64,000 nt of DNA from NCBI RefSeq assembly GCF_006716305.1, contig NZ_VFOU01000001.1, positions 186,001 to 250,000 of the forward strand, in the 5' to 3' direction. The position numbers were made by a program, and so were the translations under genes. Positions 22,609-53,692 of the stretch are shown piece by piece. Numbering within the stretch: position 1 is the first letter of the stretch; every line of letters starts with the position of its first letter. The notes beneath the pieces were generated by a model. That model worked only from the letters and a program-made list of their open reading frames with translations, ran no database searches and was not told where the DNA came from. The stretch is from Enteractinococcus coprophilus (GTDB lineage Bacteria; Actinomycetota; Actinomycetes; Actinomycetales; Micrococcaceae).

Positions 22609-22627
22609 AAATATTCGAAAGGACGAC

Positions 22628-24130
22628 ATGACAAACGGCAAACCAGCTAACCTGCCAGATCAAATCCGTCACTACATCAATGGTGAATTCGTCGACTCAA
22701 TCGACGGCGACACCTTCGATGTGCTCAATCCGGTCACCAACGAGGCCTACATCAAAGCGTCCTCGGGTAAAGTCGCCGACATCGATGCCGCCGTCGCTGC
22801 GGCAAAAGATGCCTTCGACAATGGCCCATGGCCACACATGCTGCCACGCGAACGCTCCCGCATTCTGCACAAGATTGCCGACGTCGTAGAAACCCGTCAG
22901 CAGGAACTGGCCGAAATGGAAACCTGGGACTCCGGTCTGCCAATCTCCCAGACCCTGGGTCAGGCACGCCGTGCAGCCGAGAACTTCCGCTTCTTCGCCG
23001 ACCTGATCGTTGCTCAGGAAGACAACGCCTTCAAGGTACCGGGCCGTCAGATCAACTACGTCAACCGCAAACCAATCGGTGTTGCCGGTCTGATCACCCC
23101 GTGGAACACCCCGTTCATGCTGGAATCCTGGAAACTCGGCCCAGCCTTGGCCACCGGTAACACCGTAGTCCTGAAGCCAGCCGAATTCACCCCGCTGTCG
23201 GCAGGTTTGTGGCCAGGCATCTTCGAAGAAGCCGGTCTGCCAGCTGGTGTATTCAACATGGTTCATGGTTACGGCGAAGAAGGCTACGCCGGTGACTCGC
23301 TGGTCAAGCACCCAGATGTCCCACTGATCTCGTTCACCGGTGAATCTCGCACCGGTCAGATCATCATGGGCAACGCTGCTCCATACCTCAAGGGCCTATC
23401 CATGGAGCTGGGCGGTAAATCCCCAGCCGTGGTCTTCGAAGACGCCGACCTAGAAACCGCCATTGATGCGACCATCTTCGGTGTGTTCTCCCTCAACGGT
23501 GAACGCTGCACCGCCGGTTCCCGTATCCTGGTCCAGCGCAGCATCTACGACGAATTCGTCGAGCGCTACGCAGCCCAGGCCGCCAACGTCAAAGTCGGCA
23601 TGCCAAACGATCCGAAGACCGAAGTCGGTGCGCTGGTTCACCCAGAGCACTTCGACAAGGTCTGGTCCTACGTCCAGATCGGTAAAGAAGAAGCCCGTCT
23701 GGTCGCCGGTGGTGACCGTCCGGAAGAATTCCCAGAAGGAAACTTCCTGCAGCCGACCGTCTTTGCCGACGTCGCCCCAGATGCTCGCATCTTCCAGGAA
23801 GAAATCTTCGGCCCAGTGGTCGCGATCACCCCGTTCGATACCGACGAAGAAGCACTCGAGCTGGCTAACAACACCACCTACGGTCTGGCCGCTTACATCT
23901 GGACCAACGATCTGCAGCGCTCACACAACTTCGCGCAGAAAGTTGAAGCCGGCATGGTCTGGCTCAACTCCAACAACGTGCGTGACCTCCGCACCCCATT
24001 CGGTGGCGTGAAAGCCTCCGGACTCGGTCAGGAAGGTGGCTACCGCTCGATCGACTTCTACACCGAGCAGCAGGCAGTCCACATCAACCTGGGTGAGGTT
24101 CACAACCCAGTTTTCGGAAAACAACAGTAA
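22628..24130 (+). CDS. hpaE: 5-carboxymethyl-2-hydroxymuconate semialdehyde dehydrogenase
   Basis: The 500-residue aldehyde dehydrogenase has the usual motifs: GLITPWNTPFMLESWKLGPA (cofactor-side Asn), FTGESRTGQIIM, catalytic Glu in MELGGKSPAV and catalytic Cys in NGERCTAGSR. It oxidises the ring-cleavage product of homoprotocatechuate to 5-carboxymethyl-2-hydroxymuconate with NAD. The substrate is assigned from position between the regulator and hpaD and from overall likeness to HpaE. ATG 22628 follows GAAAGGACGAC; an earlier in-frame ATG inside the regulator gene is not supported. Codon use is strongly biased, with CCA-rich proline codons and no CCC among those inspected, suggesting high expression. 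Confidence 0.92.
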   Translation: MTNGKPANLPDQIRHYINGEFVDSIDGDTFDVLNPVTNEAYIKASSGKVADIDAAVAAAKDAFDNGPWPHMLPRERSRILHKIADVVETRQQELAEMETWDSGLPISQTLGQARRAAENFRFFADLIVAQEDNAFKVPGRQINYVNRKPIGVAGLITPWNTPFMLESWKLGPALATGNTVVLKPAEFTPLSAGLWPGIFEEAGLPAGVFNMVHGYGEEGYAGDSLVKHPDVPLISFTGESRTGQIIMGNAAPYLKGLSMELGGKSPAVVFEDADLETAIDATIFGVFSLNGERCTAGSRILVQRSIYDEFVERYAAQAANVKVGMPNDPKTEVGALVHPEHFDKVWSYVQIGKEEARLVAGGDRPEEFPEGNFLQPTVFADVAPDARIFQEEIFGPVVAITPFDTDEEALELANNTTYGLAAYIWTNDLQRSHNFAQKVEAGMVWLNSNNVRDLRTPFGGVKASGLGQEGGYRSIDFYTEQQAVHINLGEVHNPVFGKQQ

Positions 24131-24163
24131 ATACTGTTTGGCATCAGTACCGAAGGATCACCA

Positions 24164-25330
24164 ATGAAAATTGATAAAAACAAACGCACCCTGACCAGCT
24201 CGGGTTTCCACGTGTCACAGGATGCACCGGTCAACACCGACAACCCCATCCCGACGCCAGAAGCACCGGCACCGGATGTACTACGCGTAGCGTACATGGA
24301 ACTCCAGGTCACCGACCTGGCAGCATCCCGCGAGTTCTACGTTGATGTCCTGGGTCTGCATGTCTCCCACGAAGACGACAACGAGATCTACCTGCGCTCG
24401 GCAGAAGAATTCATCCACCACAATCTAGTCCTGAAACAGGGCCCGATTGCTGCCGTTGGTGCGTTCTCCTACCGTGTGCGTTCCCCAGAAGACGTCGATG
24501 CAGCCGAAGCCTTCTACAAAGAACTCGGCTGCCGCACCGAACGTCGCAAAGACGGTTTCGTCCGCGGTATTGGCGATTCGGTTCGTGTCGAAGACCCACT
24601 GGGCTTCCCATACGAATTCTTCTACGAAGTCGACCACATGGAACGCCTTGCCTGGCGCTACGACCTGCAGATCCCAGGTGAACTGGTTCGCTTGGATCAC
24701 TTCAACCAGGTCACACCAGATGTGCCTCGCGCGGCCCGCTACATGCAGGACCTCGGATTCCGCATCACCGAAGAAATCTCGGACAAAGACGGTACCGTCT
24801 ACGCCGCCTGGATGCGTCGGAAACCAACCGTGCACGATACCGCGATGACCGGTGGCGACGGCCCACGCATGCACCACGTCGCGTTTGCTACCCACGAGAA
24901 GCACAACATCCTGGCGATCTGTGACCGCCTGGGTGCCCTGCGTCGCTCGGATGCGATCGAACGTGGCCCCGGCCGCCACGGTGTGTCCAATGCGTTCTAC
25001 CTCTACCTGCGCGACCCAGACGGTCACCGCGTCGAGATCTACACCCAGGACTACTGGACCGGCGACCCAGACAACCCAGTTGTCTCCTGGGACGTCCACG
25101 ACAACCAGCGTCGTGACTGGTGGGGCACCCCGGTTGTACCTTCCTGGTACACCGATGCCTCGACCGTGCTGGACCTCGACGGCAACCCCGTCGAAATCGT
25201 TGCTCGTGAAGCTGCCAAAGAAATGGACGTCACCATCGGTGCCGATGGTTTCTCCTACACTCGTGCAGACGATGACGAAGAAATGCCAGACTGGAAGAAG
25301 GGCGAGTTCAAACTCGGCAACCAGCTGTAA
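24164..25330 (+). CDS. hpaD: 3,4-dihydroxyphenylacetate (homoprotocatechuate) 2,3-dioxygenase
   Basis: The 388-residue extradiol dioxygenase of the vicinal-oxygen-chelate type cleaves the ring of homoprotocatechuate. It closely follows the Brevibacterium fuscum enzyme as I recall it. The metal ligands are His in LVRLDHFNQV, His in RMHHVAFATHEKHN and Glu in HRVEIYTQD. The second-sphere His that acts as acid/base is in KPTVHDTAM. Whether the metal is Fe(II) or Mn(II) cannot be told. The N-terminus is ~20 residues longer than in relatives and rich in Thr, Ser and Pro. It ends the operon, 39 bases before a strong hairpin. Confidence 0.95.
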   Translation: MKIDKNKRTLTSSGFHVSQDAPVNTDNPIPTPEAPAPDVLRVAYMELQVTDLAASREFYVDVLGLHVSHEDDNEIYLRSAEEFIHHNLVLKQGPIAAVGAFSYRVRSPEDVDAAEAFYKELGCRTERRKDGFVRGIGDSVRVEDPLGFPYEFFYEVDHMERLAWRYDLQIPGELVRLDHFNQVTPDVPRAARYMQDLGFRITEEISDKDGTVYAAWMRRKPTVHDTAMTGGDGPRMHHVAFATHEKHNILAICDRLGALRRSDAIERGPGRHGVSNAFYLYLRDPDGHRVEIYTQDYWTGDPDNPVVSWDVHDNQRRDWWGTPVVPSWYTDASTVLDLDGNPVEIVAREAAKEMDVTIGADGFSYTRADDDEEMPDWKKGEFKLGNQL

Positions 25331-33790: not shown

Positions 33791-33813
33791 GTGACGTCAA
33801 AGCATGACGTCAC
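33791..33813. promoter_or_regulatory. Perfect inverted repeat in the fdhA upstream region
   Basis: GTGACGTCA (33791-33799) and TGACGTCAC (33805-33813) are perfect inverted copies separated by AAGCA. The element lies 85 bases before fdhA in a divergent promoter region, the usual setting for a dimeric regulator's operator. The regulator is not known. Confidence 0.6.
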
Positions 33814-33898
33814 GGATAGCATATGAAAATACTGACACGTAGCCGATCGATAGCAATACCCCTCCCAACTTGGGAAAAGCTCTGTTAGTGTTATCCTC

Positions 33899-36800
33899 AT
33901 GGCACGGTTCTCAGTTCTCGGTTGGCCGGTGTTCCGCCAGGCCAAGTCTAAAGACAAACTGGGGCGCGGTCCGGCGGTTGAATCGCCGAAATATGCAAAT
34001 ATGCGCCCTCGCACGGAAGACGCTGACAAAGTCGTTCAAAGCGTTTGTCCGTACTGTGCGGTGGGCTGCGGTCAGCGCATCTATGTCAAAGACGATGAGG
34101 TCATCCACATCGAAGGTGACCCCGACTCGCCGATCTCGCGCGGCCGGTTGTGTCCGAAGGGTGCTGCATCTGAGCAGCTTGTCAACACCCCGGTTCGACA
34201 GAAAACAATCCTCTACCGCCGGCCCTATGGCACGGATTGGGAAGAGCTTGATCTCGAGACCGCAATGGAAATGATCACGGAGCGCTTCTTAGAAGCTCGC
34301 CGGAATCACTGGGAAGATTTTGATGAACATGGTTCGCCAGTTAACCGCACGATGGGGATTGCTTCCCTTGGCGGGGCAACCATCGATAACGAAGAAAACT
34401 ACCTGATCAAGAAATTGTTTTCGGCTGCCGGTGCGGTGCAGATCGAGAACCAAGCCAGGATTTGACACTCTTCCACAGTTCCTAGTTTAGGAGCTTCCTT
34501 TGGGCGTGGCGGTGCCACCCAGCCATTGCAAGATATGGCGAATGCAGACCTGGTATGGATTCAGGGTTCAAACATGGCTGAAGCACACCCCGTTGGGTTC
34601 CAGTGGGTTGCTGAAGCCAAGGCTCGCGGAGCCAAACTTGTCCACGTTGACCCACGTTTCACCAGAACATCGGCCATGGCGGATAAACACGTCCACATTC
34701 GTGCTGGTACCGACATCGCGCTGCTCGGTGGACTGATCCGCCACGTGATCGAAAACGACATGTGGTTCAAGGAATACGTCACCCACTACACCAACGCGGC
34801 ACATCTGGTCGACGAAGGTTACCAAGACACCGAAGACCTCGATGGTCTGTTCTCTGGGTTCGACAAAGATACCGGCGGGTACGACAACGCCACGTGGCAA
34901 TACGAAAAGGACCCCTATGAGGCCGACGGTATTGCCAAGGACATGACCTTGCAGCACCCGCGCTCGGTCTTTCAGATCCTGCGTCGCCACTACTCGCGCT
35001 ACACCCCTGAGATGGTTGGCAACGTCACCGGTATCAAGACGGAAGACTTCCTGGAGCTCGCCGAGCTGATAGGCAAGAATTCGGGTCGCGAACGTACGAC
35101 CGTGATGGCCTATGCGCTGGGGTGGACCCAGCACTCGATGGGCTCGCAGTTCATTCGCACTGCCGCGATCCTGCAGTTACTGTTAGGAAATATGGGTCGT
35201 CCTGGTGGCGGTATTATGGCGCTGCGTGGTCACGCGACCATCCAGGGTTCTTCGGATATCCCAACACTGTTCAACCTGCTGCCGGGCTACCTACCATTCC
35301 CGGTTGCCGGCAAGCATGACACGTTGCGCGATTACCTTGATGATGCCGTCCCCAAGGACCAGAAGGGTTTCTGGTCCAATGGCGACGCCTACATGGTCTC
35401 GTTGCTCAAAGCATGGTTCGGCGACGACGCGACTGAAGAAAACGACTTCGGATATCAGTACCTGCCGCGTCTGACCGGTGCCCACGGCACGTATCAGACC
35501 CTGATGCGGATGTTTGATAAGAGTGTCGACGGCTATTTCGTCCTTGGTCAAAACCCTGCGGTCGGCTCAGCCAACGGGCGCATGCAGCGCCTGGGGATGT
35601 CGAATCTGAAATGGATGGTCGTTCGCGACTTCCAGCTCATCGAGACGGCAACCTGGTGGAAAGAAGGACCCGAGATTGCCACCGGTGAGTTGAAGACCGA
35701 AGACATCGCGACCGAGGTCTTCTTCATGCCGGCTGCCAACCACACGGAAAAAGCCGGGACTTTCACGCAGACCCAGCGGCTGGTCCAGTGGCGCCACCAG
35801 GCGATCACACCTCCTGGGGATGCGCGCTCAGAACTCGAGTTCTTCTACGACCTTGGCGTCAGGCTCAAAGAAAAGCTCAAAGACTCGACCGATCCACGCG
35901 ACAAACCGCTGCAGGCCATGACCTGGGATTACCCGGTCGATGAGCACGGTGAACCATCCGCCGAAGCCGTCCTGAAAGAAATCAACGGTTACTACACGAC
36001 CGGACCGAATGCCGGCAAGCCGGTAGATAACTTCAACCAGTACAAGGCCGACGGTTCAACCGCCGGAGGTTGCTGGATATACGCCGGCGTCTACGCCGGT
36101 GGCATTAACCATGCAGCCAACCGCGTGCCGGGTAAAGATCAAGACGAGATGGCACACCAGTGGGCCTGGGCGTGGCCGGCCAACCGTCGCATCCTCTACA
36201 ACCGAGCCTCAGCGGACCTGGATGGCAACCCGTGGTCCGAGCGCAAGAAGCTCGTGTGGTGGGATGAAGAACAAGAAGTTTGGACCGGGAAAGACGTGCC
36301 CGACTTCCCGATCAAACGCCCACCATCGACCAAGACCGCTCACGACACCCATGGTCCGGATGCGCTGGCCGGTGACGATCCGTTCATCATGCAGTCCGAC
36401 GGTAAGGGTTGGTTGTTCGCGCCCAAGGGCATGAACGATGGACCAATGCCGACGCACTTCGAACCGGCCGAGTCACCAGTGACAAACCCGTTATATCCGC
36501 AGCAGGAATCGCCATCGCGAGTACTGATTACCTCGCGTGGCAACCAGTTGGCACCGGCAGGTGATCAACCCGGCGCTGAGGTCTTCCCGCACGTGTTTAC
36601 CACCTACCGTCTGACCGAACATCAAACGGCCGGTGGCATGAGCCGGTTCTTGCCCTACCTCTCAGAACTCCAACCAGAAATGTTCGTGGAGGTCTCCCAA
36701 GAACTCGCGGCTGAAGCCGGGCTGGAGCCCTACGGTTGGGCGACGATCGCGTCGCCACGCGGTGCGATCGAAGCCAAAGTCTTGGTAACTCAGCGGATGC

Positions 36801-37147
36801 AACCGGTAGTCGCCGGGGGCAAGACCGTCCACCAGATCGGTATGCCGTTCCACTTCGGCGTCGGGAACCAAGCCTTGGTGACTGGTGACAGCGTCAACGA
36901 CCTGCTAGGGATGACCCTGGATCCGAACGTGTATATCCAATCGGCCAAGGCGGTAGCGTGTACGATCATGCCGGGCCGCCGTCCGCGAGGCCCTGCCCTC
37001 GTGAAATTCGTGGAAGATCTTCGAGAACAGGCCGGTATCACGGTGCTGACCGGACATCGACGGCTGACGTTTGAACGCGATGCTGAGACCATGGAAGTAT
37101 CCGATCCACCAACACTGACCGATCCCGAGCCTCACACAGGAGAATAA
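33899..37147 (+). CDS. fdhA: Formate dehydrogenase catalytic subunit, selenocysteine-containing
   Basis: One 1082-residue molybdopterin enzyme is encoded, read through an in-frame TGA at 34463-34465 (codon 189). The [4Fe-4S] cluster is C50-x2-C53-x3-C57-x27-C85. After ENQARI comes the TGA, then HSSTVPSLGASFGRGGAT, exactly where formate dehydrogenases carry catalytic Sec followed by His. QGSNMAEAHPVGFQW and later Moco motifs follow. The enzyme oxidises formate to CO2. No twin-arginine signal is seen, so it should face the cytoplasm. A -10-like TATCCT (33889-33894) directly before the ATG, and no Shine-Dalgarno, suggest a leaderless mRNA. Conventional gene calling would split it in two at the TGA. 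Confidence 0.95.
34463..34495 (+). promoter_or_regulatory. Selenocysteine UGA codon and SECIS-like hairpin
   Basis: The TGA at 34463-34465 is followed eleven bases on by AGTTCCT (34477-34483), a loop AGTTT, and AGGAGCT (34489-34495). This makes a 7-base-pair stem with one G-U pair and a GU in the apical loop. Position and form fit a bacterial SECIS element recognised by SelB. Confidence 0.85.
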
Positions 37148-37148
37148 C

Positions 37149-38201
37149 GTGGTTGATTTCCTCGAGCGTCCCGGCGAGCTGATGGAAGCCTACGGGCAAG
37201 ATACCGAGCGCAAGGGCTTCTTTACTGACACGTCGATCTGTATCGGGTGTAAAGCGTGCGAGGTGGCCTGTAAGGAGTGGAACCAGAACCCGATGAAGGG
37301 TGATCTGGAAATTCTGGGGTCCTCCTATGACAACACCGGAAGCCTGGGGGCGAATACCTGGCGCCACGTTGCGTTCATCGAACAGGGCCAAGAACAAATC
37401 GACAAGGCCCGTGAATCTGGCGCGCGATTGGTTGGTCTCGGGATGCCAGCCTTTGGCGCTCCGGAAACGCGCGAACCGAATACCACCGAGGATCTAGGCA
37501 TGCCAGAATTCGGCTCGCCCGGGGTCCGCATCAAAAACAAGGTCGACAACCCGCCGAATCCTGATACCCCGGAATTCCGGTGGCTGATGAGTTCGGATGT
37601 GTGCAAGCACTGTACATATGCCGGGTGCCTGGATGTGTGCCCGACCGGCGCGCTGTACCGGACCGAGTATGGCACCGTCGTGGTCCAGGACGATATCTGC
37701 AATGGCTGCGGAACCTGTGTGGCTGGTTGCCCGTTTGGGGTTATCGAACGTCGCGATACCGGCACAATTCACACCAAGCCAGATCGCGTCGACTCGCGGT
37801 ATTCAATGGACGTCAAACACAAGGGCACAGCCAAGAAGTGCACCTTCTGCTTTGATCGCATGGTCGATGGACAGACTCCTGCGTGTGCCCAGACCTGTCC
37901 AACACAGTCGATCCAGTACGGTGGCCGCGAAGAAATGGTTGACAACGCCAAGAAACGCGTCACGGCCATGCACGAAAAAGGCCTCACCGAAGCGCGTCTC
38001 TATGGTGCCAATCCTAACGACGGCGTCGGCGGTATCGGATCGGTCTTCCTCCTGCTGGATGAACCCGAAGTCTATGGTCTGCCACCGGATCCTCAGGTGC
38101 CTACCAAAGACCTGCCGAAGATGTATAAGAAGGTCGGTATCGCTGCCGCTGGTATGTTAGCCGCTGCTGCGACCGCATTTCTAGGAGCCCGCAAGAAGTG
38201 A
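37149..38201 (+). CDS. fdhB: Formate dehydrogenase iron-sulfur subunit
   Basis: The 350-residue ferredoxin-type subunit carries four [4Fe-4S] binding sets: CIGCKACEVACKEWN (~32-46), CKHCTYAGCLDVCPTGA (~155-171), CNGCGTCVAGCPFG (~184-197) and CTFCFDRMVDGQTPACAQTC (~230-249). The C-terminus ends with one hydrophobic segment, VGIAAAGMLAAAATAFLG, and basic ARKK, a membrane anchor. It passes electrons from FdhA to the membrane subunit. An inserted loop near residues 95-125 contains two similar blocks, GMPAFGAPE and GMPEFGSPG. GTG 37149 follows the fdhA stop by one base. Confidence 0.92.
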   Translation: MVDFLERPGELMEAYGQDTERKGFFTDTSICIGCKACEVACKEWNQNPMKGDLEILGSSYDNTGSLGANTWRHVAFIEQGQEQIDKARESGARLVGLGMPAFGAPETREPNTTEDLGMPEFGSPGVRIKNKVDNPPNPDTPEFRWLMSSDVCKHCTYAGCLDVCPTGALYRTEYGTVVVQDDICNGCGTCVAGCPFGVIERRDTGTIHTKPDRVDSRYSMDVKHKGTAKKCTFCFDRMVDGQTPACAQTCPTQSIQYGGREEMVDNAKKRVTAMHEKGLTEARLYGANPNDGVGGIGSVFLLLDEPEVYGLPPDPQVPTKDLPKMYKKVGIAAAGMLAAAATAFLGARKK

Positions 38202-39295
38202 CCCTGTCTGAATTTGACGCCTATCGGCCCGAAAACGAACCGCGTCGCAAAAGGCGCCGCAATCGCCCACCCGGCAAACGCCGTGGGGGCGGTAACGGCG
38301 ACGGTGCGCGCGAAATGCCGATGGTCGAAGACGTTGAATTCGCAGACTCGTACTACGGTCGTCCCATTGTCAAAGCCCCACCCTGGGACGATAAAATCTC
38401 CGCTTACCTATTTTTAGGTGGCGTGGCAGGCGGTTCGGCGATGTTAGCGGTCGGTGCCGACCGTATCGGTTTCGACAAGCTGCGGCGCAACACTCGACTG
38501 ACCGCGCTGGGGGCCACTATTGGCGGGACCGTATTTTTGATCCTGGACCTGGGGCGGCCCGAACGTTTCCACCACATGCTACGCACCTTCAAACCTGCCT
38601 CCCCGATGAACATGGGAACCTGGATCTTGAGCTCTTTCGGGATGGGTGCAGGCGTGGTCGCGGCCATCGAAGTCGACCAGTTGACAGGTCAGAAGATCCC
38701 ATTGGGTGTGCTGCGTAAAGTTGTCTACGCGTTCGAAAAACCAGCAGCATTATTAGCCGCCGTCATGGGGGCGCCCCTGGCCTCATATACCGGGGCTTTG
38801 CTGGCCGATACCTCGGTTCCGACCTGGAACGGCGGTAAAGATAATCTGTCGTACCTTTTCGTTTCTTCCGCAGCGATGGCATCCTCTGGGTTCGCGCTCA
38901 TAACCACACCAACATCCCAAACCCGCCCCGCCCGGACGTTTGCGACTCTTGGCGCCGTCGCTGAGCTCTTCTTTTCTGAAAAGCTCACCGCCGATATGCA
39001 CCCGGTCGAAGCCGAGCCGCTCCAGACCGGGCGTCCGGCACGCAAACTGCGCTGGGCCCAAGCACTCACCATCGCAGGCGGAGTTGGTGCAGCGCTTCTG
39101 AGTCGCAACCGCATTGCAGCCATCGCATCAGGAACCGCCCTCGCCACGGCATCGATGCTGACCCGTTCGGCCATCATGGAAGCCGGGATCAACTCGACCA
39201 AGGACCCACGCCACGTTGTGGAACCGCAACGCGACCGGCTGGCCGCCCGCCGCGCTAAGGGTATTGTAGACGACTCGATTACGACGGTCGGTTAG
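38198..39295 (+). CDS. Formate dehydrogenase membrane subunit, NrfD/PsrC type
   Basis: The 365-residue protein starts with a ~50-residue Arg/Gly/Pro-rich cytoplasmic stretch, then several membrane helices beginning ISAYLFLGGVAGGSAMLAVG, the signature of NrfD/PsrC quinone-reacting subunits. LDLGRPERFHHMLRTFKP in the first third is also typical. It would pass electrons to menaquinone. It replaces the cytochrome b (FdnI-type) subunit of enterobacterial enzymes. GTG 38198 overlaps the fdhB stop, and the 3' end overlaps the convergent selD stop by four bases. Proton translocation is possible but not readable here. Confidence 0.88.
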   Translation: MTLSEFDAYRPENEPRRKRRRNRPPGKRRGGGNGDGAREMPMVEDVEFADSYYGRPIVKAPPWDDKISAYLFLGGVAGGSAMLAVGADRIGFDKLRRNTRLTALGATIGGTVFLILDLGRPERFHHMLRTFKPASPMNMGTWILSSFGMGAGVVAAIEVDQLTGQKIPLGVLRKVVYAFEKPAALLAAVMGAPLASYTGALLADTSVPTWNGGKDNLSYLFVSSAAMASSGFALITTPTSQTRPARTFATLGAVAELFFSEKLTADMHPVEAEPLQTGRPARKLRWAQALTIAGGVGAALLSRNRIAAIASGTALATASMLTRSAIMEAGINSTKDPRHVVEPQRDRLAARRAKGIVDDSITTVG

Positions 39296-40296
39296 CGAAC
39301 TTCAACCACACCAGCGCGATCTGTGGTGTACCCGATGACTGGATAGCCTGGTAATTCACCAACAACTAACAGACCACCAGATGTTTGAGCATCAGCCAGG
39401 ACCAACAGGTCATCTTCCGTAACGGCCTCGCCTGTTTCAACGTTTGGAGACACCCACTCCAGGTTGCGTCGGGAGCCACCCGAGACAAAGCCGTCGCGTA
39501 GCGCTTCGGCAGCGCCGTCGACCAGCGGGACAGCACTGCGATCAATAACTGCACCGGTGCCGGAAGCACGCATCATCTTGTACAGGTGGCCCAGCAGACC
39601 GAATCCGGTCACGTCAGTTGCGGCCTTGATTCCCGCAGCAACCGCTTGCTCTGCAGCAGCCTTATTCAGCGTGGTCATGGTCGCGATTGCTTCTTCAAAG
39701 ACCTCACCGGTAGCTTTATGACGGTTATTCAACAATCCCAAACCGATCGGCTTGGTCAAGGTCAACGGAAGCCCAGCTGTGGCACCATCGTTGCGCATCA
39801 GCTGATCGACTTTCGCCACGCCGGTAACGGCCATGCCGTATTTGGGCTCGGGATCGTCGACGGTGTGGCCACCGATCACCGGGCATCCAGCTTCCTTACC
39901 CACAGCCAGTCCACCGGCGAGCACCTCGGACATCAGCTCAGCCGGCAGAACACCTCGCGGCCAGCCCATTAGGTTGATGGCAACGATCGGGCTGCCGCCC
40001 ATTGCATAAATATCGCTCATCGCATTCGCTGCGGCAATTCGACCCCAGTCATAGCCTGAGTCGACCACTGGCGTGAAAAAGTCCGCCGTCGACAAGATCG
40101 CGGTATCGCCATCCAATCGGACAGCTGCGGCATCGTCGCCGTCGTCAACGCCGACAATCACGTGGTCATAGTCTTGACCGGCGAGCTGCGCCACGGCCTC
40201 CTCGAGTTCACCGGGTGGGATCTTGCAGGCGCACCCGCCGCCGGACGCAGTTGTGGTTAGTCGCGGAAGTGTGGTCTGTTCAAATGTTTCAGTCAT
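39292..40296 (-). CDS. selD: Selenide, water dikinase (selenophosphate synthetase)
   Basis: The 334-residue enzyme makes monoselenophosphate from selenide and ATP, the selenium donor for Sec-tRNA. The Gly-rich active-site loop reads GGGCACK with Cys22 in the position that is Sec or Cys in the family, so this copy is a cysteine form. Other marks are GVDDGDDAAAVRL, ILSTADFFTPVVD (metal Asp), ANAMSDIYAMGG and GGHTVDDPEPKYG. It faces the fdh operon tail-to-tail and lies divergent to tRNA-Sec, selA and selB. Confidence 0.95.
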   Translation of the reverse strand: MTETFEQTTLPRLTTTASGGGCACKIPPGELEEAVAQLAGQDYDHVIVGVDDGDDAAAVRLDGDTAILSTADFFTPVVDSGYDWGRIAAANAMSDIYAMGGSPIVAINLMGWPRGVLPAELMSEVLAGGLAVGKEAGCPVIGGHTVDDPEPKYGMAVTGVAKVDQLMRNDGATAGLPLTLTKPIGLGLLNNRHKATGEVFEEAIATMTTLNKAAAEQAVAAGIKAATDVTGFGLLGHLYKMMRASGTGAVIDRSAVPLVDGAAEALRDGFVSGGSRRNLEWVSPNVETGEAVTEDDLLVLADAQTSGGLLVVGELPGYPVIGYTTDRAGVVEVR

Positions 40297-40384: not shown

Positions 40385-40480
40385 GGAGGCGTCAGGGTTC
40401 CTGGTGGTCCCCGCGGTCTTCAAAACCGACGAGACCAAGTAGCTTGGTCTGGCGGGTTCGATTCCCGTCCGCCTCCGCCA
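40385..40480 (+). tRNA. selC: tRNA-Sec (anticodon TCA)
   Basis: The 96-base tRNA has anticodon TCA at 40420-40422 in the loop CTTCAAA, a GGAGGCG/CGCCTCC acceptor, T-loop GGTTCGATTCC, and encoded CCA. The extra arm is long: AGACCAAG (40432-40439) pairs with CTTGGTCT (40443-40450) around TAG, as in selenocysteine tRNAs. It is charged with Ser, then converted by SelA. It lies 30 bases before selA. Confidence 0.96.
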
Positions 40481-40510: not shown

Positions 40511-41830
40511 TTGTTGGCTGCAGATCCGCGCCGCGCGATTCCCTCGACCGACCGACTGCTAGCTCTGCCTGAAGTGCAAGCCGCAAGCACCCGGCTGGCA
40601 CCACACGTCATTCGACGCATCATCACAGATGTGCAAAACGATGCCCGGCACGGTGAACTGGCTCCCGACGACGTCGCCACAATCATTACCACCAGGCTTG
40701 AGGCTACGCACCCAACCCGGTTATCTCCGGTACTCAATGCCACCGGCGTCATCATCCACACCAATCTCGGGCGGGCTCCTCTATCGAAGGCTGCACGCGA
40801 AGCCCTGATAACTGCGGCGGGATACGTGGATTTGGAACTTGACCTGCGCGATGGAAAACGCTCCAAACGTGGCATGTGGGCCAAGGCCGCGTTACTCTCT
40901 GCGGTGCCAGAAGCCGAAGATGCGCTCGTGGTCAATAATGGGGCTGCCGCGCTCTCGCTGGCAACGACGACCTTATCTGTTGCCCAGCACCTACCAGAGG
41001 TGGTGATTAGTCGCGGTGAGCTGGTAGAGATCGGTGCGGGATTCCGCTTACCGGATCTGATTGTCTCGGCTGGCGTAGAGCTGGCTGAAGTCGGCATGAC
41101 GAATCGGACCAATATCAATGACTACCGGTCGGCAATTACCGAACGCACCGGCGCGATGCTGAAGGTGCATCCGTCCAATTACTGGATCGGTGGGTTCAAC
41201 GCATCGGTTGAAATCAAAGAGCTTGCGCAGCTGGCCCGCGAGCACAACCTGCCGCTAATCGTGGATGTCGGCTCCGGGCTGGTCGAATCCGATGAAGTAC
41301 TCACCGATGAACCGACCATGTCAGCAGCGTTGCGCGACGGCGCCGACGTCGTGATTGCTAGCGGCGACAAACTCCTCGGCGGACCGCAGGCCGGGATTCT
41401 GTTGGGTAAGACAGAGATCATCGAACAGCTGGCGAAACACCCGTTGGCCCGAGCATTCAGAGCCGATAAGTTCACCCTGGCGGCTCTGGAAGCAACCCTG
41501 AATTCGCCATCGACGCCCATACACGACGCGCTGCATGCGGACTCCGATACACTCCGCGAGCGCAGTCAAAGCATCGCCAGTCAGCTGGGCGTCGATGTGG
41601 TGGCGCACGATGGTCGAGTCGGTGGTGGTGGCGGCGCCGGCGTTCCGCTGCCCGGCTGGGCGATTCGTCTGCCCGAGTCTTATGCATATCCGCTTCGCAA
41701 CGGCACCCCGGCAATTTTGCCCCGGGTCGCAGACGGTCAGTGTCTGGTCGACCTGCGCTGCGTGCCCGCGGATCAAGATGAGGCTCTGCTGACCCGGCTA
41801 CGTGAGGCCGCCGATGAGGTAGCACTGTGA
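40511..41830 (+). CDS. selA: L-seryl-tRNA(Sec) selenium transferase
   Basis: The 439-residue PLP enzyme converts Ser-tRNA(Sec) to Sec-tRNA(Sec) with selenophosphate. Family marks are LNATGVIIHTNLGRAPLS, the central KRSKRGMWAKAALL segment, RGELVEIGAGFRLPDLI, VHPSNYWIGGF and the PLP-lysine in IASGDKLLGGPQAGIL. The start is one of two adjacent TTG codons (40511 or 40514) after GAAAGGACC. It is slightly shorter than the ~460-residue E. coli protein. It overlaps selB by four bases. Confidence 0.95.
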   Translation: MLAADPRRAIPSTDRLLALPEVQAASTRLAPHVIRRIITDVQNDARHGELAPDDVATIITTRLEATHPTRLSPVLNATGVIIHTNLGRAPLSKAAREALITAAGYVDLELDLRDGKRSKRGMWAKAALLSAVPEAEDALVVNNGAAALSLATTTLSVAQHLPEVVISRGELVEIGAGFRLPDLIVSAGVELAEVGMTNRTNINDYRSAITERTGAMLKVHPSNYWIGGFNASVEIKELAQLAREHNLPLIVDVGSGLVESDEVLTDEPTMSAALRDGADVVIASGDKLLGGPQAGILLGKTEIIEQLAKHPLARAFRADKFTLAALEATLNSPSTPIHDALHADSDTLRERSQSIASQLGVDVVAHDGRVGGGGGAGVPLPGWAIRLPESYAYPLRNGTPAILPRVADGQCLVDLRCVPADQDEALLTRLREAADEVAL

Positions 41831-43620
41831 CCCAGCGGTTCGTGATTGCTACCGCGGGCCACGTGGATCACGGCAAATCTGCACTGGTTCGCGCGCTGAC
41901 CGGCACAGAGCCCGACCGGTGGGACGAGGAACGCGAGCGCGGACTCACCATCGATTTAGGTTTTGCCGAAATGACACTGGACTCTGGGCGCTCGGTGTCC
42001 TTTGTTGATGTGCCCGGCCACGAACGCTTCTTGGGCAATATGCTGGCCGGACTCGGCCCAGCGCCGATTGTGTGCCTGGTCGTGTCCGCGGATGACGGTT
42101 GGTCTGCCCAGACCTCCGAACACCGCGACGCCATAGCGGCCCTGGGGATTGACACCGGGCTGGTCGTTATTTCAAAGCTTGATCTAGCACCGGATAACGT
42201 TGAGATCGTGACCCAGCAAATCCGCGAGGAACTCGCGGACACTGCGCTGGCTGAGGCTCCGATCGTGGCCGTTTCAGCGCTCGCTGGCACCGGTTTGGAT
42301 ACCTTCCCGCAGGAGCTCGACGGAATACTCAACGGTATTGACTCCCCCGATACCTCGGCGCCCATCAGGTACTGGGTGGATCGCAGCTTTGCGGTCAAGG
42401 GCGCGGGCACTGTGGTCACTGGCACGCTGGCGGCCGGGACCCTTCGAATCAATGACGTGCTGCAGCTGTCGGGAACTGATACCCAGGCGACGGTTCGCAA
42501 CCTACAAAGCCACGGCAGTTCAGCGAATGAACTCACCCCGGTAACTCGAGCAGCGGTCAATCTGCGCGGTGTCGACGCCGAGAACATCACTCGTGGCGAC
42601 GTCCTGGTCACCCCGGGCGCGTGGTTTCACACGGAGGTCGTCGACGTCGTCGGCACACCGGGGGTCGATTTCACTGACCTGGCCCAAGAGTTCTCCGTCC
42701 ATATTGGGACGGCAACGGCCTACGTTCACTGTCGACCGCTCGGAACGAATTTTGCGCGGCTCACTTTGGATCGCGCGCTGCCTCTCCACGTGGGCGACCG
42801 CCTCATCCTGCGCGGGACCGGCCAACGGCTCATCACCGGTGGAGCAACTGTGTTGGACGTCGACCCACCAACGCTCCGTCGTCGTGGGGCGGCCAAACGG
42901 CGAGCCGAAACTCTTGGCCAGCTTGGTGCCGCTAACCATCTCGAAGTCGAAATCACCCGGCGTGGTGCGATCGAACAGGCGAGCCTCGATGCAATGGGCA
43001 TTCCGGTCCCCGATCCTCTTCCGGAAACCGTCCTGAACCATGACGAATGGTTTATTCACCGCGAGCGTTTGGCCGCCTGGGCGCGGCAGCTTCGTGACGC
43101 TGTGGCGGCACAATACGAGCGCGATCCTGCGGCCGGTGGGATCAGCCAGCAGGCCGCCGTCCATCTGCTGGAACTCCCACATAGAAATCTGCTACAGCTG
43201 GTCGTAGAGCATGCCGAACTGGCGGAGCGCAGTGGCCGCGTGACCGACCCAGGGCTAAAACCGACGCTAGGCGCAGCCGAAGCGGCGGTTGTCCAACTTG
43301 AGCGCCGACTCCTGGCTGACCCCTTCACCGCTCCAACCGCCGATGAACTCGCCGAGCTGGGCCTGAGCGATAAAGAACTGGCCGCCGCAGCCCACCAACA
43401 GCGGCTGCTCCGTCTGCCTGACAATATTGTGCTGCACCCCAAAACCCCCGCGATGGCGATGCGTAAACTGGTCCGCCTGGAGCAACCCTTTACCGCAGCC
43501 GATGCCCGGCAGGCTCTGGGCACGACCCGACGCACGCTCATCCCGCTGCTGGAACATTTAGATGCCCGCGGCTGGACGCAACGCTTGGACGGCAACCTGC
43601 GCAAAGTCAGTGGCCGATAG
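41827..43620 (+). CDS. selB: Selenocysteine-specific elongation factor
   Basis: The 597-residue factor delivers Sec-tRNA(Sec) to the ribosome at UGA codons marked by a SECIS hairpin. The GTPase domain has G1 AGHVDHGKS (10-18), G3 DVPGHERF and G4 region VVISKLDLA. Domains II and III follow with YWVDRSFAVKGAGTVVTGTL. The C-terminal ~250 residues form the winged-helix repeats that bind SECIS RNA. Its GTG start overlaps the selA stop. Size and order are normal. Confidence 0.95.
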   Translation: MTQRFVIATAGHVDHGKSALVRALTGTEPDRWDEERERGLTIDLGFAEMTLDSGRSVSFVDVPGHERFLGNMLAGLGPAPIVCLVVSADDGWSAQTSEHRDAIAALGIDTGLVVISKLDLAPDNVEIVTQQIREELADTALAEAPIVAVSALAGTGLDTFPQELDGILNGIDSPDTSAPIRYWVDRSFAVKGAGTVVTGTLAAGTLRINDVLQLSGTDTQATVRNLQSHGSSANELTPVTRAAVNLRGVDAENITRGDVLVTPGAWFHTEVVDVVGTPGVDFTDLAQEFSVHIGTATAYVHCRPLGTNFARLTLDRALPLHVGDRLILRGTGQRLITGGATVLDVDPPTLRRRGAAKRRAETLGQLGAANHLEVEITRRGAIEQASLDAMGIPVPDPLPETVLNHDEWFIHRERLAAWARQLRDAVAAQYERDPAAGGISQQAAVHLLELPHRNLLQLVVEHAELAERSGRVTDPGLKPTLGAAEAAVVQLERRLLADPFTAPTADELAELGLSDKELAAAAHQQRLLRLPDNIVLHPKTPAMAMRKLVRLEQPFTAADARQALGTTRRTLIPLLEHLDARGWTQRLDGNLRKVSGR

Positions 43621-43663
43621 CCTCACTGAACAAAACGATGTCTTTGCCCACCCGAAACTCGTT

Positions 43664-43673
43664 TCGTATACGA
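43664..43673. promoter_or_regulatory. Second GntR/FCD-type palindrome, upstream of hpaH
   Basis: TCGTATACGA, a perfect 10-base palindrome, lies 36 bases before hpaH. It equals the core of the operator-like palindrome at 20396 upstream of the first hpa operon, which links the two loci as one regulon. Confidence 0.7.
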
Positions 43674-43708
43674 TTAACCCCAGGCTTTTCTATCTCATAA
43701 GGAGTCCG

Positions 43709-44494
43709 ATGTTAGACCACGAAACCCACGTCAAAATCGCTGACGAACTACACCAGGCCAACATTGACCGCACCCCGGTCCCGCTGCTGACCAAGCGCTA
43801 CCCCGAGATGGTCATCGAAGATTCCTACGCCATCCAGAAAATTTGGGCCGACCGCCAGATTGAAGCTGGGCGCCGCAAAGTCGGCCACAAAATTGGGCTG
43901 ACCTCCAAGGCCATGCAGGCCGCAACCGGCATTGATGAACCCGACTACGGCGTCATCTTTGACGACCAGGTGTTTGAATCCGGACATGTGTTCGAGTGGA
44001 AGAAATACACCCACCCGCGCATCGAAATCGAATTAGCCTTCGTACTAAAAGACGACCTGCGCGGCCCCAACGTCAACATCTTCGACGTGCTGCGCGCAAC
44101 CGAATACGTCACCCCCGCGCTGGAGGTCCTGGACGCACATATCGAGATGGAAGGCCGTACGATTACCGACACCATCTCGGACAATGCAGCCTTAGGCGCC
44201 ATGGTATTGGGTGGCACCCCGGTCAAACCGGAAGATATCGATCTGCGTTGGATTGGTGGAGCCCTGTGGCGCAATAATGAAATCATGGAAACCGGCCTAT
44301 CCGCCGGCATTCTGGGTCACCCAGCCAACGGCGTGCACTGGCTCGCCAACCGCCTGGCCGGTCACGACGATTATCTAGAAGCCGGCGAAATCATCCTGGC
44401 CGGTTCCTTCACCCGCTACATGTGGGTCTATGAAGGCGATACGGTCTTCGCCGAATTCGGTCCGCTGGGCAGCATCGGCATCCAGTTCGAATAA
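43709..44494 (+). CDS. hpaH: 2-oxo-hept-3-ene-1,7-dioate hydratase
   Basis: The 261-residue FAH-superfamily hydratase is of the HpaH/MhpD type. It adds water to the linear dienol product of the homoprotocatechuate route, giving 4-hydroxy-2-oxoheptanedioate. Metal-site residues are Glu in HPRIEIELAFVL and in the EYVTPALEVLD segment. The N-terminal KVGHKIGLTSKAMQ is typical. ATG 43709 has a strong AAGGAG site; a longer frame into selB is not supported. It is 30 bases ahead of hpaI and behind the GTATAC palindrome. Confidence 0.92.
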   Translation: MLDHETHVKIADELHQANIDRTPVPLLTKRYPEMVIEDSYAIQKIWADRQIEAGRRKVGHKIGLTSKAMQAATGIDEPDYGVIFDDQVFESGHVFEWKKYTHPRIEIELAFVLKDDLRGPNVNIFDVLRATEYVTPALEVLDAHIEMEGRTITDTISDNAALGAMVLGGTPVKPEDIDLRWIGGALWRNNEIMETGLSAGILGHPANGVHWLANRLAGHDDYLEAGEIILAGSFTRYMWVYEGDTVFAEFGPLGSIGIQFE

Positions 44495-44523
44495 CACTTC
44501 ACGACGACGAAGGAGACTCGCCC

Positions 44524-45336
44524 ATGGCTTTGACCCCGCGCCCCTCTTTGAAAACCCTGTTCACCGACGAAGCCAAGGCCCAGCGTAATCGTGCAGCCGC
44601 CGGCATATTCCTGTCCTCCGGGGATGCTGGCATCGCCGAGATCGTCGCCGGTGCCGGGATGGACTACTTGCTGATCGACGCCGAGCACTCTCCGCTGAGC
44701 CTGGAATCCGTCCAATCCCAGCTGCGTGCTCTTGCCGCCTATGATTCGATCCCGGTCGTGCGCATCCCGGAAAATAACACCACGTTGATCAAGCAGTACC
44801 TCGACTTGGGCGCCCAGTCGCTGATCATCCCGATGATCTTCACCCCCGACGACGCCCGCAAGGCCGCGGCTGCGGTCGCCTACCCGCCCGAAGGTGTACG
44901 TGGCATCGGCTCGGCGCTAGCCCGCTCAGGTGCTTGGGGTCGCTATCCGGACTACCTGACCACCGCGCGAGAAACCATCACCCTGACCATCCAGATCGAA
45001 ACCGCCGAGGCCCTCGAACACCTCGACGAGATCCTGGCGGTCAAGGGCATTGACGGGATCTTCATTGGCCCCTCCGACCTATCCGCCTCGATGGGTTACA
45101 CCGGGCAGCAAAACCACCCGGACGTTGTAGCCGCCGCTAAGAACGTCATCGCCAAGGCCAAAGCCGCCGGGCTGTTCGCCGGGGTCAACGCGTTCAACCC
45201 CGATCAGGCCCAGGACTACGTCGATGCCGGAGCCGACTTCGTCAACGTTGGTGCCGACGTCGCCTTGTTGGCACGTGCAACCGAACAGCTTGCTGCCAAG
45301 TGGACCACCGTAGAAACGGCCACCACCAGCTACTAG
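44524..45336 (+). CDS. hpaI: 4-hydroxy-2-oxo-heptanedioate aldolase
   Basis: The 270-residue class II aldolase of the HpcH/HpaI family splits 4-hydroxy-2-oxoheptanedioate into pyruvate and succinate semialdehyde. Marks are DYLLIDAEHSPLSLESVQ (catalytic His), the Arg of ALARSGAWGRYPDYL, and the metal Glu and Asp in IQIETAEALEHLDEI and IFIGPSDLSASMGY. The ATG has a GAAGGAGACTCGCCC leader. It ends the second hpa operon, followed by a hairpin. Confidence 0.93.
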   Translation: MALTPRPSLKTLFTDEAKAQRNRAAAGIFLSSGDAGIAEIVAGAGMDYLLIDAEHSPLSLESVQSQLRALAAYDSIPVVRIPENNTTLIKQYLDLGAQSLIIPMIFTPDDARKAAAAVAYPPEGVRGIGSALARSGAWGRYPDYLTTARETITLTIQIETAEALEHLDEILAVKGIDGIFIGPSDLSASMGYTGQQNHPDVVAAAKNVIAKAKAAGLFAGVNAFNPDQAQDYVDAGADFVNVGADVALLARATEQLAAKWTTVETATTSY

Positions 45337-47108: not shown

Positions 47109-48332
47109 ATGAGCAACCCCGCACCTACACCGACCAAAGTCCAGCGAACTACAGCGTTGGTTATGGCCACGCTGGGCTTTGCCGTGAACTTCTGGGCCTG
47201 GTCATTACTGAGCCCGCTAGGACCTGTCTTCGTAGAGCAAGGCATTGTGGTCGATGCTTCACTGCTAGTTGCCATCCCGGTGCTGGTCGGATCCCTGGGT
47301 CGTATCATCGTCGGAGCACTCACGGACCGCTTCGGTGGCCGACTCATGATGCCCACGATCTCCTTACTGACCATCATCCCGGTGCTCTTTTTAGGCTTCG
47401 TCGGCCAATACACCTACAGCACGTTACTGGTTGGCGGCTTCGTGCTAGGCATTGCCGGCACCTCATTTGCCATCGGTGTCCCCTACGTCAACTCCTGGTT
47501 TCCGAAGGAGCGTCGCGGAACAGCCACTGGCATCTACGGCATCGGCATGGGTGGAACAGCTATTGCCGCGTTCACCACGGTGCCATTATTCGAACAAGGC
47601 AACGTCGTACCGTTCATTGTGACCGCTGCTGCCCTGCTGGCCTATGCACTCGCCGCATTGGCGTTGATGAAGAACCACCCCGACTGGCAGCCCAGCGAAC
47701 AGAACATCGGGCGCCAGATGGCCGCCGTGATGAAACTGCCCTTCACCTGGCAGGCATGCTATCTCTATGCGCTCTCCTTCGGCGGGTACGTGGCCTTCTC
47801 CGTGTATCTGCCCATGTATCTCATGGACGCCTACGGACTAGAAGCCGGCGATGCTTCCTTGCGCATGGCAGGCTTTGTTGTAGCAGCAGTCATTTTGCGT
47901 CCGATCGGCGGGATGCTCTCGGACAAAATCGGCGCCATCATCACCCTGCTGTCCAGTTACACCATCGTGTTGTTGTGTGCTCTGGCGCTAGCCACCAACC
48001 CCCGATTAGAAGGTCTGGGCACGGTGGCTTTCTTATTGATGGCGATTGGGCTCGGGCTGGGGTCCGGCGCCGTCTTCGCCCTGGTTGCTCAAGTGTCTGA
48101 TCCACATCAGGTCGGCTCGATCACCGGATTCGTGGGTGCAGCCGGTGGACTGGGCGGCTTCGTACCACCGTTGCTACTGGGCGGCTTGTGGATAGCAACC
48201 CAAGAGTACCGCTGGGGCCTGCTACTGCTTGCCCTAGCCACCGTCCTTGCTGGACTCATTACCTTATTGACCGCCCGCGGAATGCGGACGAAGAACGCAG
48301 CTGATACCGAAGAACAAAGGAGTATGGGATGA
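47109..48332 (+). CDS. narK: Nitrate/nitrite MFS transporter, NarK family
   Basis: The 407-residue transporter has ~12 membrane segments. NarK-type features are LGFAVNFWAWSLLSPLGPVF in TM1, GALTDRFGGRLMM after TM2, GTSFAIGVPYVNSWFPKERR (a Gly-rich nitrate-signature region with the conserved Arg) and GAAGGLGGFVPP in TM11. It imports nitrate or exchanges it for nitrite at the cytoplasmic membrane. It is the first gene of the nar operon and overlaps narG by four bases (ATGA). Confidence 0.92.
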   Translation: MSNPAPTPTKVQRTTALVMATLGFAVNFWAWSLLSPLGPVFVEQGIVVDASLLVAIPVLVGSLGRIIVGALTDRFGGRLMMPTISLLTIIPVLFLGFVGQYTYSTLLVGGFVLGIAGTSFAIGVPYVNSWFPKERRGTATGIYGIGMGGTAIAAFTTVPLFEQGNVVPFIVTAAALLAYALAALALMKNHPDWQPSEQNIGRQMAAVMKLPFTWQACYLYALSFGGYVAFSVYLPMYLMDAYGLEAGDASLRMAGFVVAAVILRPIGGMLSDKIGAIITLLSSYTIVLLCALALATNPRLEGLGTVAFLLMAIGLGLGSGAVFALVAQVSDPHQVGSITGFVGAAGGLGGFVPPLLLGGLWIATQEYRWGLLLLALATVLAGLITLLTARGMRTKNAADTEEQRSMG

Positions 48333-51300
48333 CCATCGACGACCGGGCTACCTCCCGAGACAAAGCTGCTGGCATCGATAATGCAGCCATGGATGCACTG
48401 GTCGGGGTGCGCAAAATCTTCTCCCGCAAGGCCGCCATTAGCCCGGACAACCGCGAAGTCCACTACGACGGCGGACGACACGGCGACTCTTTCTATCGCA
48501 ACCGCTGGGCCCACGACAAAGTCGTTCGCTCTACCCACGGAGTCAACTGCACCGGCTCATGTTCCTGGAATGTCTACGTCAAAGACGGCCTGATCACCTG
48601 GGAAGCCCAAGCCACCGACTATCCATCAGCTGGGCCCGATATGCCCGAATACGAACCCCGCGGCTGTCCGCGTGGTGCGTCGTTCAGTTGGTATACCTAT
48701 TCCCCCACCCGTGTGCGTTATCCCTATGTTCGTGCGGTGTTGATGCAGATGTTCCGGCAGGCCAAAGCTGAACACCACGATCCGGTCGAAGCCTGGAAAT
48801 CCATCGTCGAAGACCCAGAAAAAGCTCGCCGCTACAAATCTGCGCGTGGCAAAGGTGGTCTTGTCAGAGCAACGTGGGACGAAGTGGTAGAGCTGGTCGC
48901 TGCCGCTTACGTGTACACGGTGAAGTATCTCGGCCCAGACCGCACCACCGGGTTCTCCCCGATCCCAGCCATGAGTCCGGTCTCGTTCTCCTCGGGCGCA
49001 CGCTTCCACCAGCTCATTGGCGGCAGCATGCTGTCCTTCTACGACTGGTATGCGGACCTCCCACCAGCATCACCCCAAGTATTCGGTGACCAGACTGATG
49101 TCCCAGAATCCGGTGACTGGTTCAACGCCAGCTACCTGATGATGTGGGGCTCAAACGTACCGCTCACCAGAACGCCCGATGCTCACTGGATGGCGGAAGC
49201 ACGCTACCGCGGCCAAAAGGTTATCGCGGTCAGCCCCGACTATGCCGAGAACGTGAAGTTCGCTGATGAATGGCTAGCACCGGCCACCGGCACCGACGGC
49301 GCGCTGGCTATGGCCATGGGGCACGTCATCCTCAAAGAATTCTTCGTCGAAAACACCACCGAATACTTCGACGGTTACGTCAAGAAATACACCGACCTCC
49401 CCTTCCTGGTCGAACTCAGCTCAAACGAGTCGGGTCAGTACACCCCCGGTAAGTTCATCGTGGCCACCGATCTTGCTGAGGGTACTTCCGAGGAGTCGAC
49501 CACCGAACACGCAGTATTCAAACCAGTCATGTGGGACACCGCCACCGATGCACCGGCAGTGCCCAACGGCACCCTAGGCCACCGCTTCAGTGACGACGGC
49601 GAAGGCCGCTGGAATCTTGATCTGGGTGACATCCAACCCGCCATGACGCTGCTGGGTGCAGCTGAGGGTACCGCAGAAATTGTGCTTCCCCGTTTTGATA
49701 CCGCCGACCAGGGCGACATCGATACCATCATGCGCGGGGTGCCCTACCGGACGCTGGCCGACGGTCGGAAGGTCACCACAGTCTTTGACCTACTGCTAGC
49801 AGAATACGGCGTCGGACGAGACGGTCTGCCCGGCCACTGGCCGACCGGCCTGGACGATGCCGAGAGCCCCAACACCCCGGCTTGGCAGGAACGCATCACC
49901 GGTGTCCCTGGCGAGGCCGCTGCTCGGATTGCCCGCGAATTTGCCCAAAACGCGCGAGATTCCAAGGGTCGGTCCATGATCATCATGGGGGCTGGCACCA
50001 ACCACTGGTTCCATTCGGACCAGACCTACCGGACATTTTTGACCCTGACCAACCTGTGCGGTACCCAAGGTGTCAACGGTGGCGGCTGGGCGCACTACGT
50101 CGGACAGGAAAAGATCCGACCCTTCACCGGTTGGATCCACCTGGCCAATGCCCTGGACTGGGCCCAGCCTCCACGGCAAATGACTCAAACCACGTACTGG
50201 TATATGCACACCAGCCAGTGGCGCTATGACCAATTCGGTGCGGATAAGTTGGCAGCTCGCGCGGGTAAGGGCAAATTCGCCGGTATGACGACCGCCGATG
50301 CTGTGGCACTATCGACCCGTTTGGGTTGGCAACCGTTCTACCCATCCTTTGATCGCAACCCGTTAGACATTGCTGATGAGGCTCACGCCGCAGGCAAGAC
50401 AGCTGCTGACCACATCGTCGATGAGCTGAAGGCCGACCGGTTGCGTTTCGCTGCCGAAGATCCAGACGCGGAGAATAATTATCCGCGCATCTGGTCCATG
50501 TGGCGTGCCAATACCTTGGCCTCGTCGGCCAAGGGGGAACAGTACTTTTTCAAACACCTGCTGGGCGTGGATAACACGGTCAGCGCCGAAGAGACTCCGG
50601 AGCATCTGCGTCCCCGAGATGTGGAATGGCGCGAGGATGCACCCATTGGCAAGATCGATTTGATGTTGACCTTAGATTTCCGGATGACGACCTCAACCCT
50701 GCACAGTGACGTCGTGCTGCCAGCAGCAACTTGGTATGAGAAACACGACCTGTCGACCACTGATATGCACCCGTTCGTCAACACCTTCAATCCGGCGATC
50801 TCTACCCCTTGGCAGTCCCGCAACGACTGGGATATTTGGGCGACCATTGCCGAGAAATTCTCGGATTTAGCTAAAACACACTTGGGTACCCGGACCGACG
50901 TCGTTGCCCAACCGCTCCAGCATGACACCCCGGATGCGCTGAACACGCCCCACGGGAAAGTGCTGGACTGGAAATTCGGTGAATGTGAACCGATCCCCGG
51001 CCAGACCATGCCCAAACTGGTTGAGGTGGAACGGGATTACACCGCAATCTATGACAAATACACCACCATCGGTCCGCTGCTTGAAGAAAAAGGGATGACG
51101 ACGCGCGGCATTAACTACGACGTCAAACACCACGTGGAACGCCTCCGGTCCATCAACGGCACCGCAAGGACCGGGGTCGGGGCCGGCCAACCGCTGATCA
51201 AAACCGATTTGCAGGCAGCCGATTACATTCTGGGCTTGTCCGGTACGACCAACGGTCTGATGGCCACCGAGGGATTCGCCCATCTGGAACGTCGCACCGG

Positions 51301-52069: not shown

Positions 52070-52081
52070 GAGGGAATCGCA

Positions 52082-53686: not shown

Positions 53687-53692
53687 GCAGCC

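Follow-up and report, generated by a model that had tools for sequence, protein, structure and literature searches.

A formate dehydrogenase gene of Enteractinococcus coprophilus predicted to be read through an in-frame UGA as selenocysteine

Is the TGA codon that interrupts a long reading frame in Enteractinococcus coprophilus a stop signal or a translated codon? The frame occupies 33899-37147 on the plus strand of the window, as the 64,000-nucleotide stretch of DNA analyzed is called here, and encodes 1082 residues ending at TAA with a sole interruption, TGA at 34463-34465, which corresponds to residue 189. Under translation table 11, a mechanical ORF finder reports two genes, 33899-34465 (188 aa) and 34526-37147 (873 aa from a TTG start), just as the initial annotation of this DNA had expected when it proposed a single formate dehydrogenase (FDH) gene read through UGA as selenocysteine (Sec). 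The coordinates given there were exact and the frame is the same on both sides of the TGA. The proposal of read-through is supported by the codons that homologues carry at this site, by a covarying hairpin and by purifying selection downstream of the TGA. The codon is almost certainly decoded as Sec in a membrane-anchored FdhABC formate dehydrogenase, with SelA, SelB, SelD, tRNA-Sec and a SECIS element predicted to carry out the insertion. The two broken genes of an ordinary ORF finder are thereby corrected to one fdhA.

The read-through protein scores 1817 bits against NF041513 (formate dehydrogenase, actinobacterial; cut-off 1400) and 957 bits against TIGR01553 (FDH-N alpha; cut-off 814). 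Fe4S4, molybdopterin and dinucleotide-binding domains lie in the single FdhA chain above curated cut-offs; three Pfam molybdopterin oxidoreductase domains exceed theirs, and PF00384 at residues 152-579 spans the TGA. Among solved structures, the best relatives are E. coli FDH-N (1kqf), aligned as 1kqf_A over residues 43-992, and the FDH alpha subunit 1h0h, and the X printed opposite the TGA in both alignments is taken to stand for selenocysteine. The peptide around the codon, NQARI-U-HSSTVPSLG, had been recognized at the outset as an FDH Sec site; it reads as described, and its TGA falls on the X of 1kqf, that is, at the active-site Sec/Cys position where Sec-type FDH alpha subunits have an in-frame UGA. 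From what is generally known of the family, U189 would be a ligand of the active-site metal (Mo). The genome holds one full-length FdhA match and, elsewhere, one match to the accessory protein FdhD (G000:C2:185643-186485, 237.9 bits, cut-off 27.2).

A total of 77 homologous loci were collected, 71 of which cover the Sec codon, and removal of two duplicates left 69 distinct rows. The column contains TGA in 59 rows, TGC in 8 and TGT in 2. An alignment lacking Sec or Cys here, named in the initial annotation as the finding that would speak against read-through, did not emerge: all 69 rows have TGA or a Cys codon. The TGA rows come from Actinomycetota, Chloroflexota and one Acidobacteria genome, and the remaining rows are Cys. 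A general reassignment of TGA in this organism, e.g. to Trp, is the least probable of the alternatives considered, and is close to inconceivable, since the column is otherwise Cys and never Trp, and since 7 of the 23 listed genes end in TGA, including narG, which is followed in the same frame by narH. A nonsense mutation or sequencing error that leaves fdhA as a pseudogene would account for the two truncated ORFs of the mechanical ORF finder, but is highly improbable for a codon found in so many rows from three phyla.

Selection on the downstream half also bears on the pseudogene explanation. Against the five closest relatives, dN/dS is 0.011-0.068 upstream of the TGA and 0.035-0.099 downstream, and against three more distant rows it is 0.056-0.091 upstream, with downstream values of 0.200 (L011), 0.201 (L068) and not computable (L012), all of these being rough because synonymous sites are near saturation. 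The low values indicate that in close relatives purifying selection acts on both halves of fdhA, contrary to what a decaying gene would suggest. Two separate proteins, an N-terminal fragment of 188 residues and a product of 873 residues starting at TTG 34526, could in principle be made, and the downstream ORF is indeed open from that TTG. A start there, however, would omit residues 190-205, a segment strongly conserved whether a row has TGA or Cys; the Cys homologues are continuous through it, and PF00384 crosses the TGA, so a pair of proteins has only a very slight chance of being correct. Decoding of the TGA as Sec is the reading carried forward below.

A bacterial SECIS element is a stem-loop that directly follows the UGA and has GU in its apical loop. 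Such a structure is present at 34477-34495 on the plus strand and is not retained in the Cys copies. With the T of the TGA as position 1, its eight-pair stem joins positions 15-22 to 26-33 (34477-34484 to 34488-34495) around a loop of G23-U24-U25, and 11 bases separate the TGA from the stem, in agreement with the earlier description of a hairpin with a GU apical loop starting at that distance. The fold check that had been proposed for it gave -8.5 kcal/mol at 34463-34500; 15 of 200 shuffled sequences were as stable or more so (43, 49, 74 and 57 of 200 for the other four stretches folded), and the fold energy by itself is unexceptional and weak as evidence.

It is the comparative evidence, not the fold energy, that makes the predicted hairpin convincing. 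In 44 distinct TGA rows, 96.3% of 352 stem cells are paired, compared with 25.0-65.1% in six slid controls in which one side was moved by 1-3 columns. Cells changed on both sides of the stem number 17 versus a shuffled mean of 2.8, and the covariation score is 0.294 versus 0.202 (sd 0.010), higher than all 500 shuffles, which ignore the relatedness of the rows, and than all slides (at most 0.139). Two further counts were not above shuffles: double-sided change occurs at 3 pairs (96 of 500 shuffles as high, and the +3 slide also gives 3), and further pair types number 9 (118 of 500 as high). One double change replaces C21-G27 with U-A in six distinct Enteractinococcus/Yaniella rows, the window included. 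In 9 distinct Cys rows those columns pair in 50.0% of 72 cells, and a double change never occurs. Every one of the 59 TGA rows keeps G23 and U24 in the loop; the Cys rows, too, show no variation at U17 and G23 but do vary at U24, so that U24 and the pairing are what separate the two sets. We take U17, G23 and U24 to be the positions known from the E. coli fdhF SECIS. Across residues 190-200, 56 actinobacterial TGA rows have a synonymous-codon identity of 0.725, versus a mean of 0.552 (sd 0.073) for 11-codon windows (rank 10 of 1048), and 10 Cys rows have one of 0.645 (rank 661); windows starting at residues 278-284 are at least as conserved as the SECIS segment.

The genes that insertion of Sec would require lie directly downstream. 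On the plus strand, fdhA is followed by fdhB (37149-38201), a 4Fe-4S electron-transfer subunit (Fer4_11, 71 bits; the best NCBIfam model, TIGR01582 FDH-beta, at 159 bits is below its cut-off of 334.7), and by fdhC (38198-39295), an NrfD-type membrane anchor (PF03916, 78 bits, cut-off 25.8). A selenide, water dikinase gene of Cys type, selD, occupies 39292-40296 on the minus strand (TIGR00476, 369 bits, cut-off 125; motif GGGCACK) and has no in-frame TGA. Back on the plus strand are selC, encoding tRNA-Sec with anticodon TCA (40385-40480; ARAGORN; RF01852, 72.4 bits, gathering 47), selA for L-seryl-tRNA(Sec) selenium transferase (40511-41830; TIGR00474, 407.6 bits, cut-off 267.9) and selB for the Sec-specific elongation factor (41827-43620; TIGR00475, 305.8 bits, cut-off 242.25), whose C-terminal winged-helix is matched by SelB-wing_3 at residues 552-588. 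The tRNA-Sec, selA, selB and selD genes are thus 2-7 kb downstream of fdhA, and the genome contains the full set that defines the Sec-decoding trait. The initial annotation had placed all Sec-insertion genes within 9 kb; their adjacency holds, and the distance is about right, with the end of selB at 9.2 kb from the Sec codon.

Taken together, these genes would work as follows. SelD would supply selenophosphate, SelA would convert Ser-tRNA-Sec to Sec-tRNA-Sec, and SelB would bring the charged tRNA and bind the hairpin 3' of the UGA, whereby Sec is inserted at codon 189 and termination is avoided. The product of 33899-37147 would be the catalytic subunit of a molybdopterin- and 4Fe-4S-dependent FDH with an NrfD-type anchor, in which, by analogy with the family, formate may be oxidized and the electrons passed to the quinone pool.

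The association of FDH with the Sec machinery was examined across 149 genomes of the family, using an FDH match threshold of E up to 1e-100. FDH is found in 43 of them: 41 with TGA, one (G104) with a Cys copy only, and one (G110) cut off before the codon. With a line of 70 bits, which was our own choice, tRNA-Sec is present in 40 of the 43 genomes with FDH and in none of the 106 without (Fisher p 3.8e-33). Both are on one contig in all 40, the tRNA lying a median of about 3.3 kb and at most 14.7 kb from the C-terminal FDH match, and SelB exceeds its cut-off in exactly those 40 genomes and in none of the 106 without FDH. Looser limits let the tRNA-Sec model match 149 of 149 genomes (E up to 0.001) and SelB 148 (E up to 1e-40), matches that are read as other tRNAs and EF-Tu. 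The tRNA-Sec model's own cut-off is passed by 43 genomes, and the extra three (G004, G035, G081), at 47.5-48.5 bits, are read as tRNA-Ser. Two exceptions, G021 and G148, have a TGA-bearing FDH yet no tRNA-Sec above 70 bits and no SelB above its cut-off, and in each the FDH lies on a short contig (20.8 and 8.5 kb). G104 likewise has neither. Four extra Cys-type FDH copies without the hairpin were found in family genomes (L078, L079, L080, L081): G018, G084 and G121 have one alongside a TGA copy, and G104 has the Cys copy alone.

The order fdhA-fdhB-fdhC-selD(minus strand)-selA-selB recurs in 14 of 20 loci examined. Among the six that deviate, L041 is cut by a contig end, L066 is without selD and selA matches, and three Cys-type loci and L071 show no sel genes in the DNA covered. 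ARAGORN reports tRNA-Sec in 23 of 33 loci scanned; it is missing from eight loci of Cys type, from L041 and from the acidobacterial L071, which bears TGA and shows neither tRNA-Sec nor sel matches across its 23 kb. The nearest named relative is Enteractinococcus helveticum (Micrococcaceae), whose FdhA is 95% identical. Synonymous divergence of fdhA between the two is 0.52-0.61, and the window is therefore taken to come from a species other than E. helveticum. A tree of 73 FDH rows, made by a quick method with no bootstrap and with a long-branch warning for L071, needs two Sec/Cys changes; the window's clade joins Brevibacterium, away from other Micrococcaceae, on forks that are not firm nearby. 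This placement would fit transfer. The FDH of a same-genus genome (L012, G021:C3) groups outside the genus clade, and may represent either a transfer or a foreign contig within the assembly.

Arthrobacter is listed among the recipients of a transferred Sec trait, FDH alpha comes first in the table of bacterial selenoproteins, and in most transfer cases the sel genes are close to a single selenoprotein gene, that for FDH alpha (PMC5029168). For the present family, it is about an even bet that the entire Sec machinery serves FdhA alone and moves between species as an fdhABC-selD-selC-selA-selB module; the genomes with both Sec and Cys copies (G018, G084, G121) would then offer natural tests of the reason for retaining Sec.

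Comparable islands have been published for Corynebacterium aurimucosum and Actinomycetospora chiangmaiensis, so the arrangement is already known in actinobacteria; the window extends it to one more species and adds no new mechanism. A literature search for a selenocysteine formate dehydrogenase in Micrococcaceae returned no paper. For A. chiangmaiensis DSM 45062, selenium-dependent formate removal and detection of FdhA1 by proteomics are reported (PMC7176365). Its FDH1 cluster comprises a Sec-containing FdhA1 of 1078 aa, FdhB1 of 362, FdhC1 of 366, SelA of 459 and SelB of 597 (PMC7176365), and the counterparts in the window are 1082, 350, 365, 439 and 597 aa. SelD of A. chiangmaiensis has 334 aa, the same length as in the window, but the cluster as given there lists a permease and not SelD (PMC7176365), whereas selD of the window lies between fdhC and tRNA-Sec. 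Three Sec-FDH systems are described there (PMC7176365), in contrast to the one full-length match here. The fdnG-fdxH-sel region of C. aurimucosum ATCC 700975 is alike by gene content, having a UGA-containing FDH alpha with selABD and tRNA-Sec, and differs in that a standard thiol FDH gene is also in the genome (PMC2830990).

Cys-type actinobacterial FDHs (Streptomyces, Actinomyces and four family genomes) belong to the same protein family, with 61-66% identity to FdhA over the N-terminal 345 residues in 10 named Cys rows. They differ in having TGC or TGT at the Sec codon and in loss of the hairpin, and tRNA-Sec is absent from the DNA covered in all 8 loci scanned of the 10. E. coli FDH-N (FdnG) shares the alpha subunit with Sec at the same site. 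The E. coli enzyme has a cytochrome b anchor and a Tat signal, whereas the third subunit of the window is of the NrfD family and not an FdnI-type cytochrome b gamma subunit, and no twin-arginine motif was seen by eye in the first 45 residues of FdhA. Because of the NrfD subunit, the complex is classed as an NrfD-anchored FdhABC rather than as FdnGHI, despite its alpha subunit passing TIGR01553.

Other selenoproteins were sought with a SECIS model (R1) built from FDH rows including the fdhA of the window; its match to that gene is therefore built in, and divergent SECIS elements could escape it. In the window, with filters off, R1 gives 59.9 bits at the fdhA site and 7.3 at the next, with no other site above that value; in the whole genome, where scoring covered 150 of the 2026 first-look candidates, the next sites reach 20.3, 16.4, 15.5 and 13.1 bits. 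A degenerate pattern written from the alignment finds one site, that of fdhA. No internal stops were seen in AhpC-TSA (6 matches) or OsmC (2 matches) genes, and a GRDB search gave no match in this genome and none in its control genomes either. A TGA read-through scan of the window returned 21 pairs of open frames of at least 80 codons, 10 on the plus strand (including fdhA) and 11 on the minus strand. The largest, narG-TGA-narH, was rejected as two separate known genes in one frame. A YdiU-family gene is located at 59453-60904 (NF000658, 460.5 bits, cut-off 431), and two SelO models match it below their cut-offs.

Downstream of the island, 47109-55215 contains a NarK-like transporter, below the cut-off of its model, and narGHJI, above theirs; narG ends in TGA with narH next in the same frame. 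This proximity makes formate-to-nitrate respiration plausible. Selenium-dependent formate oxidation is predicted for this Enteractinococcus, perhaps coupled to narGHJI (48329-55215), some 9 kb downstream. According to PMC4966478, the genus is aerobic.

The island itself is embedded in genes for 4-HPA (homoprotocatechuate) degradation, which are split around it at 20455-25330 and 43562-45336. The hpaG-like, hpaE and hpaD genes are upstream, and hpaH- and hpaI-like genes, both below model cut-offs, directly follow selB, an order (selB-hpaH-hpaI) common to L035 and L036. A PatB-like gene is 0.8 kb from fdhA in the window versus about 5.8 kb in E. helveticum (L035:4153-10001). No ribosome-binding site is evident by eye before fdhA, and the six Enteractinococcus/Yaniella rows compared all have a TANNNT hexamer 7 bases upstream of its ATG (33886-33899), which together suggests that the fdhA mRNA may be leaderless. 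Two TGACGTCA palindromes, 13 bases apart, lie further upstream at 33791-33813; the five relatives compared lack them in the 150 bases that precede the fdhA start. Elsewhere in the window, a TPP riboswitch is found at 2014-2118 (RF00059, 56.7 bits, gathering 54.3).
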